A stretch of DNA of 64,000 bases from a candidate division WOR-3 bacterium (GTDB taxonomy: Bacteria > Hydrothermota > Hydrothermia > UBA1063), in contig JBDRYS010000001.1 in assembly GCA_039803545.1 (NCBI GenBank), positions 437,866 to 501,865 of the forward strand. The letters run 5' to 3'. The translations under genes and the position numbers were made by a program. The notes under the pieces were generated by a model that saw nothing but the letters and a program-made list of their open reading frames with translations, ran no database searches and was not told the DNA's origin. The first letter of the stretch is position 1. Each line of letters opens with the position of its first letter. Below, one piece after another: positions 27,216 through 36,527 of this stretch.

Positions 27216-28819
27216 AATAGACCTCCTTTATGTTTTTTCATCGCTTCAACAAAACTTAAAAATAAAGGATGGGGTCTTAAAGGCCTCGACTTAAACTCTG
27301 GATGGAACTGGACCCCGATGAAAAATGGATGCTCTTTATATTCAAAAATTTCCACTAATCTTCCGTCAGGGGACATTCCCGCTGGAACAAAACCATTTTT
27401 TTCAAAAAGGTCCAAGTACTCAGGATTAAATTCGTATCTATGTCTGTGTCTTTCGTAGATTTCCCGAGCATTATAAATTTTGAAAGTAAGGGTGTTCTCC
27501 TTGATTATACAGGGGTATGCCCCTCTTCTCAATGTTCCCCCAATTGCGGTAACGTTGCTCTTTTCTGGTAGTATGGTGATCACTGGGTGTGGGGTGTTTG
27601 GATCAAATTCCGTTGAATGGGCCTTTTTAAGGTTCAATACATTGCGAGCAAATTCTATAACTGCGATTTGCATGCCGAGACAGATTCCGAAGTAGGGAAT
27701 CTTTCGCTCGCGTGCATATTTTGCAGCTATGATCTTGCCTTCAATGCCCCTTTCTCCAAAGCCAGGCCCTACAAGTATACCGTTTACACCTGAAAATATT
27801 ACGTCAGGGCTACCCCTCTCAAGATCTTCCGATTCAATGAAGTTTATTTTTATCCTTATCCTTGAGTGAGACGATGCATGGTTCAAGGCTTCTATAATTG
27901 ACTTGTATGCGTCTTTTAGCTTAACGTATTTACCAATGAAAGCCAGAGTAACTTCTTCTGTTGGGTTATCGAACCTTTTAATAAAATCGATCCACTCTCT
28001 CAGGTCAGGTTCCTTACCCTGCAAGTGGAGTTTTGACATGATCTCCACATCCAGGTTCTGATTGTACAACATAATCGGGACTTCGTAAATTATGTTGGTG
28101 TCTCTGGCTTCAATTACATCTTTCTCTGGAACATTTGAAAAAAGTGCGATCTTTTTTATCACATCTTCTCCTAAAGGCTTCTCTGTTCGGCAAATGATTA
28201 TGTCGGGCTGAATTCCTATTTCCCTTAATTTTTGGACGCTGTGTTGAGTGGGCTTGGTTTTAAGCTCCTCTGACGATTTTAAGAAAGGAACGAGAGTTAC
28301 ATGGATAAAGAGGGTATTGTAAGGTCCTTCTTCCAATCTCATTTGCCTTATGGCTTCAAGAAATGGAAGGCTTTCAATGTCTCCAACGGTTCCTCCAATT
28401 TCGACGATGACGATATCTACGTTTTCCTTTGCTAATTTCTTGATTCTTTTTTTGATTTCGTCCGTTAAGTGGGGAACAACTTGAACGGTACCGCCAAGGT
28501 ATTTACCTTCCCTCTCGTTTTCTATTATTGAGTAATATAACTGACCTGCTGTGACGTTATTTTCTCTTGTTAGGTTTTCGTCGAGGAATCTTTCGTAATG
28601 GCCCAGGTCCAGGTCGGTTTCTGCCCCGTCATCCGTTACAAATACTTCACCATGCTGGAAAGGGCTCATAGTTCCGGGGTCCACGTTAAGATAAGGGTCA
28701 AATTTTAAGGGTTGAATCCTGAATCCCCTCGCCTTAAGTAGCATCCCTATAGATGCTGTTGTGATCCCCTTTCCCAGCCCGGAAACAACACCACCGGTTA
28801 CAAAGATATATTTAACCAT
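27212..28819 (-). CDS. pyrG: CTP synthase
   Basis: The 535-residue protein has the amidoligase domain, with [13 protein letters not shown] at the N terminus and [11 protein letters not shown] near residue 41. The C-terminal glutamine amidotransferase domain has the nucleophile in G-I-C-L-G-M-Q and a late H-P-E. It makes CTP from UTP, ATP and glutamine. It overlaps glgA by 8 bp. Confidence 0.98.
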
Positions 28820-30236
28820 TTCTCACTTTCTCGTACAATTTTATGTACTCTTTTGCTGAACTCTCCCAGGAAAAATCAAGTCTCGAAACATAATTTACAG
28901 CCTTAATGAAGGCGGATTTATCGGAATAAAAAGCAATTGCTCTATCTATCGCGTTAAGCAATTCAGTAGGCTCGTATTCCTTGAATACAATTCCGTATCC
29001 ACCTTCATTAATATCTTTTACTGTGTCTTTCAAACCGCCTGTCTCTCTAACAACGGGAATAGTTCCATATCTCATAGCAATCAGTTGTCCAAGGCCGCAA
29101 GGCTCATATTTCGATGGCATAAGGAAGAAATCTGACGAAGCATAAATCCTTTTAGCCAGTATGGGGTCAAAGCCAATTTTCACATAAATATTATTGTATC
29201 TTTTAGCTATGTTAATAAACATGTCTTGATAAACTTTGTCGCCCGCACCAAGGACAACTAAATTTATGTTTCTTCTGGCTATTTCTTCGATAATCGTTGG
29301 GAAAAGATCAAAGCCTTTTTGTTCGGCAAGTCGCGATACAATTCCGAAAAGTGGCTTCTCTTCACCCACAAGCCCTATTTCATCTAAAAGCCTATTCTTG
29401 TTTGCTTTTTTGCCTTCAATTACATAGTCTTCGCTAAAGTTCACGTATAACTCTTTGTCAGTAGATGGATTCCATACCTCGTAATCGATCCCATTCAATA
29501 TGCCCTTGAGGTAGTCTTTTCTTTTTCTCAGAACTCCATCAAGACCATAGCCGAACTCTGGAGTTTGGATTTCCTCAGCGTAAGTTGGGCTTACCGTAGT
29601 AATAAAGTCAGAATAAATAATCCCGGCCTTCAAGAAGTTCACTTTGCCGTAGTACTCAAGACCTTCCATGGTAAAATCTTCTATGCCGATCCCGAGCTTC
29701 GGAAGTATATCTTTTTCGAAAAGCCCCTGGTAGGCTAAGTTATGGATGGTTATTATGGTTTTAGTTTGCATCAATTCGGGATATTTCCTTAATTTCAGAA
29801 GGGGTACAAGTCCAGTTTGCCAGTCATTGATGTGAATTATATCTATATTCCCGAGCAATTTTGCGAGTTCTAAAACGGCGTAAGCGAAATAACCAAACCT
29901 TTTCCAGTTGTCGGGGTAATCACCCTCCGGCGTTCCGTACAACTGTTCTCGATCGTATAGATCATCCTTTTCAATTAAAAAAACCTCTACACCGTGTAAT
30001 ACTGTCTTATAAATTCTCGAAATCACTTTTTCATTTTCAATATTCGCGGTAATTGAGTAATCAGTTGGGTTGACAGATGCACCGCTTTTAGCGACAAATT
30101 TTTTGTAGTAGGGCATTATCAAAAATATTTCGATTCCCGCTTTTTTCAAAGCCTTTGGTAAAGAAGACGCAACGTCAGCCAGTCCACCAGTTTTTGCCAA
30201 TGGGTCAATTTCTGATGAAGCGAACAAAACACGCAT
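28812..30236 (-). CDS. glgA: Glycogen (starch) synthase
   Basis: The 474-residue GT5 enzyme has the ADP-glucose-binding loop K-T-G-G-L-A-D-V near residue 15, H-I-N-D-W-Q-T-G, and a C-terminal [11 protein letters not shown] motif with the retaining-enzyme Glu. It elongates alpha-1,4-glucan from ADP-glucose. It leads an operon with pyrG, an SDR and a secreted esterase. AAGGAGTG precedes the ATG. Confidence 0.96.
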
Positions 30237-30260
30237 ACAACACTCCTTTTTACAGACTAA

Positions 30261-30289
30261 ATTATATTGAAGATTCGAAAAAATTGCAA
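30261..30289 (-). promoter_or_regulatory. Predicted promoter of the glgA-pyrG operon
   Basis: On the minus strand, TTGCAA (30289-30284) and the consensus -10 box TATAAT (30266-30261) are 17 bp apart. The -10 box ends 24 nt before the glgA ATG, leaving room for the AAGGAGTG Shine-Dalgarno sequence. Confidence 0.65.
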
Positions 30290-30331
30290 TTTACGGTTCT
30301 TTTTAGTATAAAAATGCACTCTATGAAAAAG

Positions 30332-30360
30332 TTGAAGCTCGACAAGTATGGAGTTAAAAT
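30332..30360 (+). promoter_or_regulatory. Predicted promoter of the binding-protein/histidine-kinase operon, giving a leaderless mRNA
   Basis: TTGAAG (30332-30337) and TAAAAT (30355-30360) are 17 bp apart. The -10 box ends 7 nt before the ATG at 30368 and no Shine-Dalgarno sequence is present. Confidence 0.6.
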
Positions 30361-30367
30361 TTAGACT

Positions 30368-31828
30368 ATGAATAAGATGAAAATGTTGGTGCCATTAATA
30401 GTTATGATTTTAATTAGTTGTCAGGCTCCCCAGAAAAAAATAGTAATTGCACTTGCATCCACGCCTCGCAGTTTAAACCCCCTTAGATACAAAGAATTGG
30501 CGAGTCTGACGATACTTTGCAATATTTATGAACCACTTGTGACAGAAGATGAAGCCTATAATATACGCCCGCTTCTTGCAAAATTTTGGGAAAGAAAAGA
30601 TGAGACCACATGGCTGTTTTATATCAGAAAAGGGGTTAAATTTCACAATGGGGAACCCCTTACAGCTTTCGATGTTGCTTATTCCTTTTACTATCTGAGG
30701 TTACTTGATAAATCAGACTTTCGAGGAATTGAAGTCTTCGTTGATACTGTTTACGCTTTGAACGATTCTGTTGTGGTTTTTAAAACGAAGTTTCCATATG
30801 AATATCTCCTTGTCGATTTAATAAGTTATTTCATAATCCCCCAGGGATTCAACCCCGATACTGGTCTTCCTTGTGGTACAGGACCTTACAGAGTTATTGC
30901 ATCAGGTGAGAGTTTTGTTACTGTAAAAAGATGGGAAAAATATTGGGGCGAAAGACCTTATATTGATGAAGCGAAAATTATTTTTGTTGAAAACCTGGAA
31001 GAGCGCATTAGAAAATTCATCGCTGGGGAAGTCGATATTATTGATTATGTCCCTTTACAACTTTCGGATACTATAATAAAATATGGGAAACTCGTTTATA
31101 CACCCGAATCTTCAGTAAGAGGTATTACCTTCAATCTTGAAACGTATCCCTTTGATCGACTCGAATTTCGCCATGCAGTTTCAATGGCCATAAACAGGGA
31201 AGAACTCATCAAGGATTACTATAAAAACCTTGCTTCATCAGCAAATCAGATATTTCCACCAAGTATAGTAGAACATATTGGGAATCTTCCCCCCTTGGAA
31301 TACGATACAGTCAAAGCAAGAAAAATCTTTCAGAAGTACAACAATCAAACCCCTTACCTTTTGTCTTATGGACGTGCAGTTAAACCTTTGGGGGATAGGA
31401 TTGTAAGTCAACTGCAAGAGGCGGGGTTGAATGTTAGAGGTAATCCCCTCCCCTCTCCTGAATTCTGGGAGAAGGTAAAGGCTAAAAAATTTCAATTTTA
31501 CCTTGCTGCTGTAGTTTTTGAGAGCCGTATAGGATTTTCACACTTGCTGAACTACTATCACAGTCCGAAGGAGGCAACATCCTTTGGAATCTCTAACAGA
31601 TCTTCCTATGCTAATAGTGTTGCTGATTCTTTGGTCGAGATGGCTATGAGAACAGCAGATTCCAGAGTCAGGGTTCAAATGGTGAGTGAGGCTGTGGGCA
31701 TCATAATGAGAGATATGCCCTTCTGCCCAATAACGTTCGAGCGCACTTACTTTGGAACGAAAAGAGATATTGAATGGACACCGTCGATAGACGGCCGAAT
31801 ATATCTTAGTAGGATAAAACGGAAATGA
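30368..31828 (+). CDS. Family 5 solute-binding lipoprotein (peptide/nickel type)
   Basis: The 486-residue protein starts with a lipoprotein signal ending L-I-S-C (Cys about residue 18). It is an SBP_bac_5 domain protein: S-T-P-R-S-L-N-P, the Y-E-P-L-V segment, F-H-N-G-E-P-L-T-A-F-D-V and R-H-A-V-S-M-A-I-N-R-E. Such proteins capture peptides, sugars or nickel for ABC importers. No ABC permease or ATPase gene is next to it; a histidine kinase follows with an ATGA overlap. A role as extracytoplasmic sensor for that kinase is therefore plausible (inference). Confidence 0.88.
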   Translation: MNKMKMLVPLIVMILISCQAPQKKIVIALASTPRSLNPLRYKELASLTILCNIYEPLVTEDEAYNIRPLLAKFWERKDETTWLFYIRKGVKFHNGEPLTAFDVAYSFYYLRLLDKSDFRGIEVFVDTVYALNDSVVVFKTKFPYEYLLVDLISYFIIPQGFNPDTGLPCGTGPYRVIASGESFVTVKRWEKYWGERPYIDEAKIIFVENLEERIRKFIAGEVDIIDYVPLQLSDTIIKYGKLVYTPESSVRGITFNLETYPFDRLEFRHAVSMAINREELIKDYYKNLASSANQIFPPSIVEHIGNLPPLEYDTVKARKIFQKYNNQTPYLLSYGRAVKPLGDRIVSQLQEAGLNVRGNPLPSPEFWEKVKAKKFQFYLAAVVFESRIGFSHLLNYYHSPKEATSFGISNRSSYANSVADSLVEMAMRTADSRVRVQMVSEAVGIIMRDMPFCPITFERTYFGTKRDIEWTPSIDGRIYLSRIKRK

Positions 31829-33309
31829 AATACCGTTCCATAAGGGTAAAATTGCTTTCATCCTTTGGTATAACCTTTTCTGTTCTTTATGCCCTACTGA
31901 TTTCGATTTTGTTCCTATTGGCAAGTAGATTTTTTAGTCAAAATATGAAAAGAAATGCCCTTTCCTTTGTGAAGTTAACCTTTAAAGAGGTTTCCGAAAC
32001 TTATCTTGATTATTATTCTACAAATCCCTTACGATTTGCTGAAAAAATCAACCTTGTTTTAAATTCTATACCGGACTTATCTAAAATCGTTATTTTTGAT
32101 TCACTTGGAAATATGGTCTTCTCAACCACCCAATTGTTTTCCAAGGAGAGGGAAAATGAAGACTTGCCCCTATCACCGCGCCTTATTAAAAGCTATGAAA
32201 TCAAAGATAAACTGGACAAAGAATATTATGTTCTCGTTCCTGTTCTAAACGAAACCGGGCGAAATGTCCATAGCATCCTATATAGTTTTTCACGGGAAAA
32301 GGAATTTCAATTTAGAAGATTAATTGCTATTTTTGGATTTTTAATTTACTCGATATTGTTTTTGATCACTTTACTTATCGATAATCTTCTGATGGGGCGG
32401 TTTGTAAGTAACATTGAAAAATTAAAACAAGTCGCTGAGTCCGTGCAAAGCGGTAATTATTCGGTCAGAGCTTTTATAAATTCAGGCGATGAAATCATGT
32501 ACCTTTCCGATACGATGAATTCGATGCTTGAATCAATCAACACCTATATTTATAATTTAAAAGCGATGGTTGAAGAGCTCGAAGCAAGGGATAGGGCTCG
32601 CAATGAAATATTAGCAAATATTTCACATGAACTGAGGACTCCTCTCACAGCGAGTAAGGGTTATGTAGAACTTTTGCTTTCTGGAAATATGGGACCTTTG
32701 TCCGAAGAGCAATTGAGGGCTCTTGAGATTATCTCCAGAAATTTAAATAGACTCGAAGAGGAGACAAAAAAACTGCTATATAGTTCTAAAATAGCAATCG
32801 AAAATATAAAGATCAACCTCTCAAAAATCGAAATAGAAAAAGTGTTTGCAGAAGTGAAAGAAATCTTTCATAATGAGATCAAGAAAAAAAACCTGAGGTT
32901 AATTAACGAATTTGAAGCTAAAGAAGTTTGTGCTGATTATGATCAGTTTCGTTCAATCATCGAAAATTTGATCTCTAACGCCATAAAATTTACGCCTGAT
33001 GGCGGTCTAATAGAAGTTAAAACCAATTCTGAAAATATTGGAGATAAAGGTTACTTCAAAATAAGTTTATTTAACACAAGCCCTAAGATCCCAGAATCGG
33101 ACTTAAATAAAATATTTGAGCCCTTCTACCAGGTAAATCACGGGACTAAAAAGGAAAAAAGTGGCGTTGGACTTGGGCTATACATTGTAAAAAGAGCCGT
33201 TGAGCTCCACAAAGGATTTGTTAGAGCTTTGAATTGCGAGAATGGCGTTAAATTTGAGGTCTATTTACCATTAATGGAGGCCTGTGATGAGGAAGATTCT
33301 CGTGGTTGA
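31825..33309 (+). CDS. Membrane sensor histidine kinase
   Basis: The 494-residue kinase has a transmembrane helix near residues 10-33, an extracytoplasmic region to about 168, a second helix near 170-192, then HAMP. The dimerisation/phospho-acceptor helix has S-H-E-L-R-T-P-L-T with His268. The ATPase domain has N-L-I-S-N-A-I-K-F-T-P-D-G-G (N box) and G-V-G-L-G-L-Y-I-V-K (G2). The G1 box, usually D-x-G-x-G, reads N-T-S-P-K here. The upstream binding protein and the downstream response regulator are its likely partners. Confidence 0.93.
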   Translation: MKYRSIRVKLLSSFGITFSVLYALLISILFLLASRFFSQNMKRNALSFVKLTFKEVSETYLDYYSTNPLRFAEKINLVLNSIPDLSKIVIFDSLGNMVFSTTQLFSKERENEDLPLSPRLIKSYEIKDKLDKEYYVLVPVLNETGRNVHSILYSFSREKEFQFRRLIAIFGFLIYSILFLITLLIDNLLMGRFVSNIEKLKQVAESVQSGNYSVRAFINSGDEIMYLSDTMNSMLESINTYIYNLKAMVEELEARDRARNEILANISHELRTPLTASKGYVELLLSGNMGPLSEEQLRALEIISRNLNRLEEETKKLLYSSKIAIENIKINLSKIEIEKVFAEVKEIFHNEIKKKNLRLINEFEAKEVCADYDQFRSIIENLISNAIKFTPDGGLIEVKTNSENIGDKGYFKISLFNTSPKIPESDLNKIFEPFYQVNHGTKKEKSGVGLGLYIVKRAVELHKGFVRALNCENGVKFEVYLPLMEACDEEDSRG

Positions 33310-33658
33310 TGACGAACCCGATATTCTTGAATTGATCAAAGATATCCTAAAGAGCAAATACGAGGTATACACTGCTAAAAATGTAAAAGAGGCGGTTTCA
33401 ACTCTCGAGAAGATAAAAATTGACCTTATAATACTCGACATTATGATGCCCCAAATTGATGGATGGGATTTTCTTTGGATGATAAGAGGTAGCGAAAAAT
33501 ACCGAGAGATCCCAGTTATAATTGTAACCGCAAGGGCTGATGCAGAAGATAAGCTCATTGGCTTGAAAGAAGGCGTCAAGGACTACATTGTAAAGCCTTT
33601 TTTGCCGAATGAGCTTATAAACAGAGTTGAGGAAATTCTGAAAGAAAGGGCAAAATGA
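33287..33658 (+). CDS. Single-domain response regulator
   Basis: I use the ATG at 33287, 6 nt after GGAGG; a GTG directly before it is an alternative start. The receiver domain is complete and stands alone (123 residues). V-D-D-E gives the acidic pocket, Asp51 in L-D-I-M-M-P is the phosphorylation site, Thr81 the switch residue, and Lys103 in V-K-P-F the conserved Lys. Lacking an output domain, it must act through protein contacts. It overlaps the kinase gene by 23 bp and the EAL gene by 4 bp. Confidence 0.94.
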   Translation: MRKILVVDDEPDILELIKDILKSKYEVYTAKNVKEAVSTLEKIKIDLIILDIMMPQIDGWDFLWMIRGSEKYREIPVIIVTARADAEDKLIGLKEGVKDYIVKPFLPNELINRVEEILKERAK

Positions 33659-34974
33659 ACCCTAAGTTAAATGTGGATCTGAACGTAGAATATTTGAAGC
33701 TAAAAAGTGCCCTCTATGATCATGTGAATGGTTTGCCATTGATTGATCTTTTTTACAAAGATATATCAAAAATTTTGGATCGAAGGCTCCCTGTAGCCTT
33801 TTATTACATCACCATACTGAATGGGGAAGAATTGGAGAAGATATTAACCTTTCAGCATCTCGATCAGCTTCTTTATGAAGCTGCTTCTAAATTAAGGCTT
33901 CTGTTAAGCAAAATTGGAATCGAAGAGTACATCCTGGCCTCTCTATCACCGGGAGGTGAAGCCCTTGCCCTCCTTGTATACGATACAAAAGGTCAAATAA
34001 GGATTGATAAAGAGTTTTTGGAGAGGAACAGAGAAATAATAAGAGAGGAGTTGCAACAGAGGCTTAATAATTACATCAGGAGGGAAAAACTAAATGCTCC
34101 AAATCCCATTGTTTTGGTCATTGAAAGGATAATAGAATCTGCACCAACTATAAGGAGTGAAAGGCAAGTTGCAAGAGAAATGGATAAATTAAAATATGAG
34201 GCTAGAAAAATCTTGGAAAGAGAAGATTACGACAAGAGATCTGCTCTTGTTAGGATGATTGAGCAAAGGAACATTAGTTTTGTTTTCCAACCTATTGTAA
34301 ATGTTAAGGAAAAACTGATATTTGGCTTTGAAGCCCTTGCGAGGGGGTCTCTGGGTTCGGGATACAATGAACCGGAAGCACTTTTTGCTTTGGCAGAAAG
34401 TCTTAACTTATTAAAAGATCTGGAAAAGGTTTGTGCTTTAAATGCCATCGATATGTTCTTTAATTTTGCCCAGAAAAGTAAAAAGTTGGATAATAAAAAG
34501 CTCTTTATTAATCTTTCGCCGCCATCTTTTACGGTGCTTCTGTCAGATGAATTTTTGGATAAGATAAATAATTACAAAATTTCTCCAAACTTTGTAGTCA
34601 TAGAGTTGACAGAAAAATTCTTATCATACAGCTCAGAAGAGAACGAGGCTTATTTTGATATCCTTAAGAGGGTAGTAAAACAACTGGGGTTTGAGATCGC
34701 TGTAGATGATGTTGGTACAGGGTATTCTACCCTTGAAAGGGTAGCTTCCCTGAATCCACATTATATCAAATATGACAGAGTTTTATTTAAAAACATACAT
34801 AAAGATCCGGTGAAACAGGAACTTTTGAAGACAATTTTTGATTTTTCAAAAAAGATAAACTCTAAGTTAATCGTAGAAGGTGTGGAAAATAACGAAGACT
34901 ATGAATTTGCTTTGAAACTTGGAATCGAATTTATGCAGGGTTTCCTATTCGGTAGGCCCTTAAAGTTTGGCTAA
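33655..34974 (+). CDS. EAL-domain cyclic-di-GMP phosphodiesterase
   Basis: The 439-residue protein has an uncharacterised N-terminal half (about residues 1-195, helical and charged) and a C-terminal EAL domain. Catalytic motifs look intact: E-A-L at 226-228, the Asn in I-N-L-S-P, E-L-T-E, V-D-D-V-G-T-G-Y-S, I-K-Y-D, V-E-G-V-E and the Gln in M-Q-G-F. It should hydrolyse c-di-GMP to pGpG. No GGDEF domain is in the protein. The stand-alone receiver gene directly before it is a likely input. Confidence 0.9.
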   Translation: MNPKLNVDLNVEYLKLKSALYDHVNGLPLIDLFYKDISKILDRRLPVAFYYITILNGEELEKILTFQHLDQLLYEAASKLRLLLSKIGIEEYILASLSPGGEALALLVYDTKGQIRIDKEFLERNREIIREELQQRLNNYIRREKLNAPNPIVLVIERIIESAPTIRSERQVAREMDKLKYEARKILEREDYDKRSALVRMIEQRNISFVFQPIVNVKEKLIFGFEALARGSLGSGYNEPEALFALAESLNLLKDLEKVCALNAIDMFFNFAQKSKKLDNKKLFINLSPPSFTVLLSDEFLDKINNYKISPNFVVIELTEKFLSYSSEENEAYFDILKRVVKQLGFEIAVDDVGTGYSTLERVASLNPHYIKYDRVLFKNIHKDPVKQELLKTIFDFSKKINSKLIVEGVENNEDYEFALKLGIEFMQGFLFGRPLKFG

Positions 34975-34987
34975 AAAGGAGGATTTT

Positions 34988-35095
34988 ATGGTTTCAAAAC
35001 ACATCATTAACTTTGTGCTCGTGTTTTTACTTCCCTCTTTGCTCATGTGGGCGATCATTCTAATATCCTACCTAAAGGAGGATACCAATGAATAG
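34988..35095 (+). CDS. Symporter small accessory protein, 35 residues
   Basis: A 35-codon frame begins at ATG 34988 with AAGGAGGA about 4 nt upstream, and overlaps the symporter start by 8 bp in another frame. The peptide is a single membrane helix: M-V-S-K-H at the start, hydrophobic residues from about 6 to 28 including L-L-P-S-L-L-M-W, and a charged tail ending K-E-D-T-N-E. Small helical partners of this kind are known directly upstream of sodium:solute symporters. Its own ribosome-binding site and translational overlap support that it is real. Confidence 0.72.
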   Translation: MVSKHIINFVLVFLLPSLLMWAIILISYLKEDTNE

Positions 35096-36527
35096 CCTCG
35101 TAGTTTTAATAGTTTTTATTATCTACCTTGTTGTTCTCCTTGTCATAGGGTACATTGCAGATCTCAAGTATTCGAAAAAATTTGAAGATTTTATTGCAGC
35201 GGGTAAAGGCTTAGGTGCTCTCGTGACCGCGATTTCTGCCTCAGCTTCCGCTGAAAGTGCCTGGGTAATGCTTGGCCTTTCAGGTTATGGTTATATTCAC
35301 GGGATGAGAGCCCTCTGGGCTGCTCTTGGTTGCCTTCTCGGCTATTTTCTGAGCGCCGTCCTGGTTATCAAGAAATTGCGCAAAGAATCTGGTGAACTGG
35401 GTTCTTATACCGTTTCTGACTTCCTTGCTGATAAGGTTGGTGATAATACTTTTTTGATAAGAGGAATTGCCTCGGTGATCATAATCATCTTTTTTACCTC
35501 ATATGTGATAGCTCAGTTTGTGGGTTCGGGAAAAACTATGGATAGTATGGGGATAGCCTCTTATAAAATGGGCGTACTTATAGGGGGAATCATCGTAGGT
35601 GCTTATGTTCTTATGGGTGGGTATGCATCAGTATGCTGGACAGATTTGCTACAAGGCCTTTTAATGACTGCCTTGTTTATAATTCTTCCAATATGGGGCG
35701 TCATTAAAGCAGGCGGCTTTTCAGGGCTTGCTTCAAAACTTTATGGCACCGGGCTGGGTAATCCATGGATAGATAATACAGGACACTTTGCTTTGGGATT
35801 TATTATCGGCGAACTCGGCATTTCCTTAGGATATATAGGAATGCCGCATTACGTTGTAAGATACATTACGGTAAAAAATGTAAAAGAGGCTAAAAAGGCC
35901 GCTCTGATAGCCTTCACCTGGGGGATAATAACCTTTTTTGGCTCTGTTATAATTGGTATCATCGCAAGGGCCTTAATTCCCAATTTGAATGATCCCGAAC
36001 AAGCAATGCCTACTTTCGTAAGAATATATACACATCCTATAATAGCCGGTATAGCCCTTTCTGCGATTACTGCCGCCATTATGTCCACTGCAGATTCCCA
36101 GTTAATGTACAGTGCAACAGCCTTTGTTAACGACCTTTTGAAAAAATTTCTGGAGAAACGCGGAATTAAGCTGGAAGACAAAAAGATGGTCCTAATTATC
36201 CGAATTATAATTGCTATAATTGCAGTTATAGCAATTGTTTTTGCTCTTCTAAAGGTCCAATTTATCTACCGATACGTACTCGATTATGCCTGGTGTGCCC
36301 TTGGTGCTTCCTTTGGGCCAGCCATCTTACTGGCACTGCATTATAAAAAGTTTAATAAATGGGGTGTGATCACCTCCTTAGTTTCTGGCTCGCTTTTGAC
36401 CTATCTGTGGGGCCTATTTAAGCTTTCTAATTACATTAAGGTTTACAACCTCGTACCCATCTTTTTCGTAACGCTATTTCTTGCCTGGCTCGTATCTGAA
36501 TTGACGAGTAACGTGAAAAAGAGCTGA
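35088..36527 (+). CDS. Sodium:solute symporter (SSS family)
   Basis: The 479-residue protein has about 13 predicted transmembrane helices. SSS motifs include the N-terminal F-I-A-A-G-K-G-L-G near residue 35, S-A-S-A-S-A-E-S-A-W, G-G-Y-A-S-V-C-W-T-D near 173 and the helix 8 A-I-M-S-T-A-D-S-Q-L-M that holds sodium-site Ser residues. The relatives are PutP/PanF-like; the substrate is not decidable. AAAGGAGGA precedes the ATG. It ends the sensing operon. Confidence 0.92.
   Translation: MNSLVVLIVFIIYLVVLLVIGYIADLKYSKKFEDFIAAGKGLGALVTAISASASAESAWVMLGLSGYGYIHGMRALWAALGCLLGYFLSAVLVIKKLRKESGELGSYTVSDFLADKVGDNTFLIRGIASVIIIIFFTSYVIAQFVGSGKTMDSMGIASYKMGVLIGGIIVGAYVLMGGYASVCWTDLLQGLLMTALFIILPIWGVIKAGGFSGLASKLYGTGLGNPWIDNTGHFALGFIIGELGISLGYIGMPHYVVRYITVKNVKEAKKAALIAFTWGIITFFGSVIIGIIARALIPNLNDPEQAMPTFVRIYTHPIIAGIALSAITAAIMSTADSQLMYSATAFVNDLLKKFLEKRGIKLEDKKMVLIIRIIIAIIAVIAIVFALLKVQFIYRYVLDYAWCALGASFGPAILLALHYKKFNKWGVITSLVSGSLLTYLWGLFKLSNYIKVYNLVPIFFVTLFLAWLVSELTSNVKKS

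Follow-up and report, generated by a model that had tools for sequence, protein, structure and literature searches.

Family-5 solute-binding proteins (SBPs) are normally parts of importers, and those for dipeptides and nickel, DppA and NikA, double as co-sensors with the chemoreceptors Tap and Tar. In LuxP-LuxQ and TorT-TorS, the histidine kinase has a periplasmic domain on which a free SBP-type protein acts. In NspS-MbaA (Vibrio cholerae, Sinorhizobium), a separate, non-transport SBP-like protein and a membrane sensor bring about a change in c-di-GMP (PMC9993111, PMC8967002), and in the Roc system of Pseudomonas aeruginosa (RocS1-RocR), an EAL phosphodiesterase answers, via a receiver, to a kinase with SBP-type sensing (PMC12051241). 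It is also a recognised pattern for an SBP gene to lie next to that of the kinase which the SBP activates (PMC11113362, PMC9602780). According to a 2022 review, work on c-di-GMP networks had dealt with only one of the 27 families in the binding-protein clan, SBP_bac_3, and direct links between stimulus and kinase are exceptionally rare in these networks (PMC8846402).

The locus described here belongs to the little-known, uncultured phylum WOR-3 (Caldifarciminota in NCBI) and lies in a genome of 1.67 Mb that is 99% complete. It encodes a family-5 SBP, a membrane histidine kinase, a stand-alone receiver and an EAL protein. We consider it rather probable that the four form an SBP-dependent two-component system setting c-di-GMP, in which the SBP is a dedicated co-sensor.

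Layout of the locus and its proteins

The window is the whole stretch of DNA that was analysed, 64,000 nucleotides long; no RNA elements were found in these 64 kb. The SBP, kinase, receiver and EAL genes occupy positions 30368-34974 of the + strand (Table 1), and all overlap: by 4 bp between SBP and kinase, by 26 bp between kinase and receiver with the GTG start of the latter (23 bp with ATG), and by 4 bp between receiver and EAL gene. Gene calls and Pfam agree with the first-pass annotation, made from the sequence alone, on the four overlapping genes, their families and the first 4-bp overlap. That annotation had begun the SBP at 30332; the frame from this position meets a TAG at 30362, and because this in-frame stop lies between, the start is the ATG at 30368. 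Two features go beyond it: the EAL protein carries a degenerate GGDEF domain at its N-terminus, and the operon probably continues into a 35-aa membrane ORF and, as its last gene, a PutP-like sodium/solute symporter. The symporter scores 348 bits against TIGR02121 (PutP proline symporter), below the family cut-off; it is found in the same place in the related genomes G001 and G002 and is absent there in G003. The 35-aa ORF has no match in NCBIfam and is probably a symporter accessory peptide.

Table 1. Coordinates of the features at the locus (window positions) and of related genes in other genomes
Feature	Coordinates	Strand	Basis or remark
glgA	28812-30236	minus	divergent from the SBP start at 30368
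Intergenic region	30237..30367	.	glgA divergent; operon promoter would be here
Family-5 solute-binding lipoprotein (SBP_bac_5), orphan, 486 aa	30368..31828	+	PF00496, E 3.4e-59
Membrane sensor histidine kinase, 494 aa	31825..33309	+	HAMP, HisKA and HATPase_c (Pfam)
Kinase extracytoplasmic sensor domain, residues 35-170	31927..32334	+	alignment, model, Foldseek
Stand-alone receiver (REC)	33284..33658	+	PF00072, E 1.4e-29; without output domain
Degenerate-GGDEF/EAL protein, predicted c-di-GMP phosphodiesterase, 439 aa	33655..34974	+	PF00563, E 6e-49
Degenerate GGDEF domain of the EAL protein	33745..34134	+	model, Foldseek and alignment
35-aa single-TM ORF	34988..35095	+	conserved in G001 and G002
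Sodium/solute symporter, closest to PutP	35088..36527	+	PF00474, E 4e-66
SBP_bac_5 and TM-sensor-TM-HAMP-SpoIIE genes, CPR (Peribacteria, Peregrinibacteria)	L179:7914-10998, L191:7872-11026		
Urocanase gene overlapping SBP gene by 4 bp	L035:6201-7886, L082:4700-6382		two families

The SBP matches PF00496 (SBP_bac_5) with 201 bits (curated cut-off 32.4), and its lipoprotein cysteine, residue 18, is invariant in 13 relatives. It is the sole PF00496 protein of the genome. No Opp/Dpp permease was found at the locus or anywhere in the 99% complete genome, so that the absence of an ABC permease, which had been proposed for the locus, holds genome-wide: the genome offers the SBP no Opp/Dpp partner because its seven ABC permeases (BPD_transp_1) are two UgpAE/GlcTU-type pairs, PstCA and one WtpB-like protein. 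At the position that we take to be that of the dipeptide-anchoring Asp of DppA, the residue is not conserved in the SBP, nor is it in several ABC-linked SBPs, so that the pocket residues give no pointer to the ligand.

The kinase consists of a TM segment, an sCache-like domain, a second TM segment, HAMP, HisKA (with H268) and HATPase_c. H268, N385 and the G2 box are invariant in the alignment. In the G1 box, NTSPK takes the place of DxGxG, both in the window and in G002, and the change may alter ATP binding. The outside domain matches no Pfam family (faint matches to sCache_like and sCache_3_2 appear in no more than 3 of the 19 members), and a sequence search of the PDB with the sensor profile found no relative. 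Its model (pLDDT 85) is closest in Foldseek to the extracellular domain of WalK (7dud/4ywz, E 2e-4, TM 0.57-0.63), and the predicted fold resembles an sCache domain.

In the receiver, D9, D10, D52, T82 and K104 are intact, and the H, N and G2 boxes of the kinase (G1 being altered) together with the phosphorylatable D52 are those of a two-component pair. All eight active-site residues of the EAL protein (E226, N286, E317, D351, D352, K372, E408 and Q428) are present and invariant in relatives, as is the DDxGTGYS loop; they correspond to RocR E175, N233, E265, D295, D296, K316, E352 and Q372. No TM segment is predicted for the protein, which matches the GGDEF-EAL structure 5m3c over its full length (E 3e-22). 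The motif SPGGEA stands in place of RxGGDEF, and the degenerate GGDEF domain is presumed to be regulatory. Degenerate GGDEF-EAL proteins are often receptors, and LapD (3pjw) is also among the structural matches, as would be expected if the protein were a c-di-GMP receptor or scaffold of the LapD or FimX kind and the circuit read c-di-GMP rather than lowered it. We regard this as highly improbable in view of the invariant catalytic residues and loop, and because the best full-length matches, PA0575 and DosP among them, are GGDEF-EAL hybrids. The intact catalytic residues of the EAL protein and the receiver point instead to c-di-GMP degradation as the likely output of the locus, as the first-pass annotation had supposed. 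With 12 GGDEF matches in its genome, the host is likely to make c-di-GMP. A search of the genome for a PilZ protein found none.

Conservation of gene order and phylogeny of the SBP

The first-pass annotation had suggested a search for the four-gene order in related lineages. The order SBP-HK-REC-EAL was found in the WOR-3 families f1, f2 and f34 and in one Edwardsbacteria genome, and this conservation supports its reading of a ligand-sensing circuit made of binding protein, kinase, receiver and EAL protein. Within the genus of the host, the order is complete in G001 and G003, and the same four genes are divided between two contig ends in G002. A second family has it in G005 and G008, with G007 lacking the EAL gene. 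In a distant family (G098, G099 and G109), the order is urocanase-SBP-SBP-HK-REC-EAL, and G112 (TA06 DG_78) carries urocanase-SBP-HK-REC without an EAL gene. The urocanase and SBP genes overlap by 4 bp in f34 and in G112, a possible link to histidine use. Family f26 has SBP-HK alone and REC-EAL elsewhere, ahead of mutL; with f26 and G112, the adjacency of SBP and kinase extends to five WOR-3 families. A receiver gene stands directly upstream of the EAL gene in all 30 EAL loci, including those of genomes without a kinase nearby, and only one of these receivers, in L116, is degenerate. Chance adjacency of the four genes was rejected on the conservation of their order. As a separate observation, HK-REC-EAL or REC-EAL lies directly before mutL, often with miaA, in many WOR-3 families (L088, L087, L089, L091 and others).

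Outside WOR-3, the Edwardsbacteria locus L167 encodes two SBPs, a kinase-less sensor protein, HK, REC and EAL. The kinase-less protein (L167:9457-10098, 213 aa) is a TM-sensor-TM protein with the same outside domain, placed between SBP and kinase, and is possibly a second subunit or a decoy. L154 has SBP-SBP-HK-REC, followed after 230 bp by a REC-PAS-GGDEF-HD-GYP protein. In the CPR genomes L179 and L191, an SBP_bac_5 gene directly precedes that of a TM-sensor-TM-HAMP-SpoIIE phosphatase protein, with no kinase. The CPR sensors score weakly against a WOR-3-only profile (24 and 35 bits); two kinases whose sensors are unrelated reach 5 bits at most. Here the SBP adjoins a homologous sensor on a SpoIIE phosphatase, so SBP and sensor appear to be the shared unit.

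A maximum likelihood tree of 43 SBPs, of which eleven are ABC-linked (a small sample), contains a split with support 97/96. All sensor-linked SBPs, two trpS-linked SBPs and several orphans lie on one side; all eleven ABC-linked SBPs lie on the other, together with the WOR-3 SBPs fused to MCP or TonB domains. SBP homologues with their own permease, which had been named beforehand as the finding that would speak against the circuit, do occur (OppBCDF-linked, in G027, G035 and G037), but they fall on the ABC side of the split and their genomes lack the sensor domain. These homologues, and the usual role of the family, would suit an ordinary importer component with a permease encoded elsewhere, its site before the kinase being accidental or only regulatory. 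Such a reading is largely refuted and we hold it to be most improbable: the genome has no Opp/Dpp permease, the SBP clade is separate from ABC-linked SBPs, and the adjacency is kept in Edwardsbacteria as well as in the five WOR-3 families, while CPR genomes have it with SpoIIE partners. The ordinary importer SBP was ruled out as a candidate by the genome-wide lack of such a permease and by the tree.

Two kinds of fusion protein were seen alongside. Many WOR-3 genomes (among them L046:7754-10963 and L047:7240-10350) have proteins of ~1040-1140 aa that join an MCP signalling domain at the N-terminus to SBP_bac_5 at the C-terminus. No TM segment is predicted in the two that were examined, which may therefore be chemoreceptors that are soluble in the cytoplasm and carry an OppA-type domain; the genes that follow in L046 look chemotaxis-like and include a CheY-like receiver. 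L049:7840-9960 and L050:5054-7102 encode ~700 aa proteins in which SBP_bac_5 is joined to a C-terminal TonB domain, and ORFs of ~700 aa with SBP matches recur across WOR-3.

The sensor profile was searched against 147 WOR-3 genomes, a strong match being at least 58 bits. The sensor domain occurs in 21 of them, essentially once per genome. In fifteen of these, from five families, the SBP gene immediately precedes the kinase gene, mostly overlapping it by 4 bp. G059 and G084 have the sensor and carry the SBP elsewhere, beside trpS. In the remaining four, all of family f16 and some of them incomplete assemblies, no SBP of the clade was found. Conversely, every WOR-3 genome with an SBP of the clade has the sensor (17/17), and none of the 147 has the SBP alone. 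Counted by family, seven have both, one has the sensor only and none the SBP only (Fisher p about 1e-6).

The sCache-like domain might bind the signal itself, with the SBP only concentrating or delivering substrate (for example, to the symporter) or tuning the kinase weakly. sCache domains usually bind small ligands directly, the four f16 genomes have the sensor without the SBP, and a PutP-like symporter comes next in the operon. We nevertheless think this unlikely, since the SBP clade never occurs without the sensor among the 147 genomes, the symporter is absent from the G003 operon and is not beside the EAL gene in f2 and f34, and SSF symporters are not known to require an SBP.

Proposed relay

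The orphan SBP has no transporter and travels with kinase, relay and EAL genes, which suggests a role as outside sensor rather than as importer part. In the proposed co-sensor relay, the lipoprotein would bind an external solute and, loaded (or empty), would dock on the sCache-like domain and alter kinase activity. Phosphate would then pass from the kinase to the lone receiver. The phosphorylated receiver would bind the degenerate-GGDEF/EAL protein, probably at its dead GGDEF domain, and switch c-di-GMP hydrolysis. We infer every step, from solute to EAL protein, from the families and the gene order, and the sign of control likewise; the simplest outcome would be lower c-di-GMP. As a guess, the cue could be an amino acid or peptide, as hinted by the links to urocanase and the PutP-like symporter. 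In favour of the relay are the conserved adjacency of SBP and kinase, the co-occurrence of SBP clade and sensor (also beside SpoIIE in CPR), the split in the tree, the missing Opp/Dpp permease, the constant pairing of receiver and EAL genes, the complete EAL and receiver active sites and the GGDEF matches of the genome. Counting against the relay are the f16 sensors without SBP, the separate SBPs of G059 and G084, the NTSPK sequence of the G1 box, the lack of PilZ and the weak CPR match.

On a wider view, the SBP clade may have abandoned ABC transport and, with its sCache-like partner, become a portable extracellular sensing unit with different outputs in different candidate phyla, namely HK-REC-EAL (WOR-3, Edwardsbacteria), HK-REC with GGDEF/HD-GYP (L154) and SpoIIE (CPR). 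For us, the chances for and against this are evenly balanced.

Comparison with known systems

That binding proteins serve as co-sensors elsewhere had been mentioned in the first-pass annotation, and LuxPQ, TorT-TorS and NspS-MbaA bear it out. NspS senses polyamines and acts directly on a GGDEF-EAL enzyme in the membrane, whereas in the WOR-3 locus the SBP belongs to family 5, its membrane partner is a histidine kinase, a separate receiver also stands before the EAL protein, and no TM segment is predicted in the latter. In Roc, the kinase itself contains fused SBP_bac_3 domains, and receiver and EAL domain are one protein; here, SBP, kinase, receiver and EAL protein are all separate, the last two being encoded by overlapping genes. 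DppA and NikA share the co-sensor role of family-5 SBPs, but their targets are chemoreceptors and they work for an ABC importer as well, whereas the locus SBP has no importer. LuxP-LuxQ and TorT-TorS (cited in PMC9602780 and PMC11113362) share a free SBP-type protein acting on the periplasmic domain of a kinase; they differ in their hybrid kinases, phosphorelays to DNA-binding regulators, other SBP folds and lack of a linked EAL gene.

The literature search found no paper joining WOR-3 and c-di-GMP and no description of the order SBP-kinase-receiver-EAL. Free SBPs that act on kinases or c-di-GMP enzymes are already known; the papers searched contained no family-5 SBP combined with a kinase-receiver-EAL relay of split components. 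The locus would offer a self-contained case whose free family-5 SBP, kinase, receiver and phosphodiesterase are distinct proteins that can each be tested. As for the split receiver/EAL pair, it would exemplify control of a phosphodiesterase by a lone receiver via a dead GGDEF domain, and the idea of an importer part turned stand-alone sensor could be traced across poorly known phyla. By analogy, the locus would resemble NspS-MbaA or LuxPQ in its working while belonging to neither.
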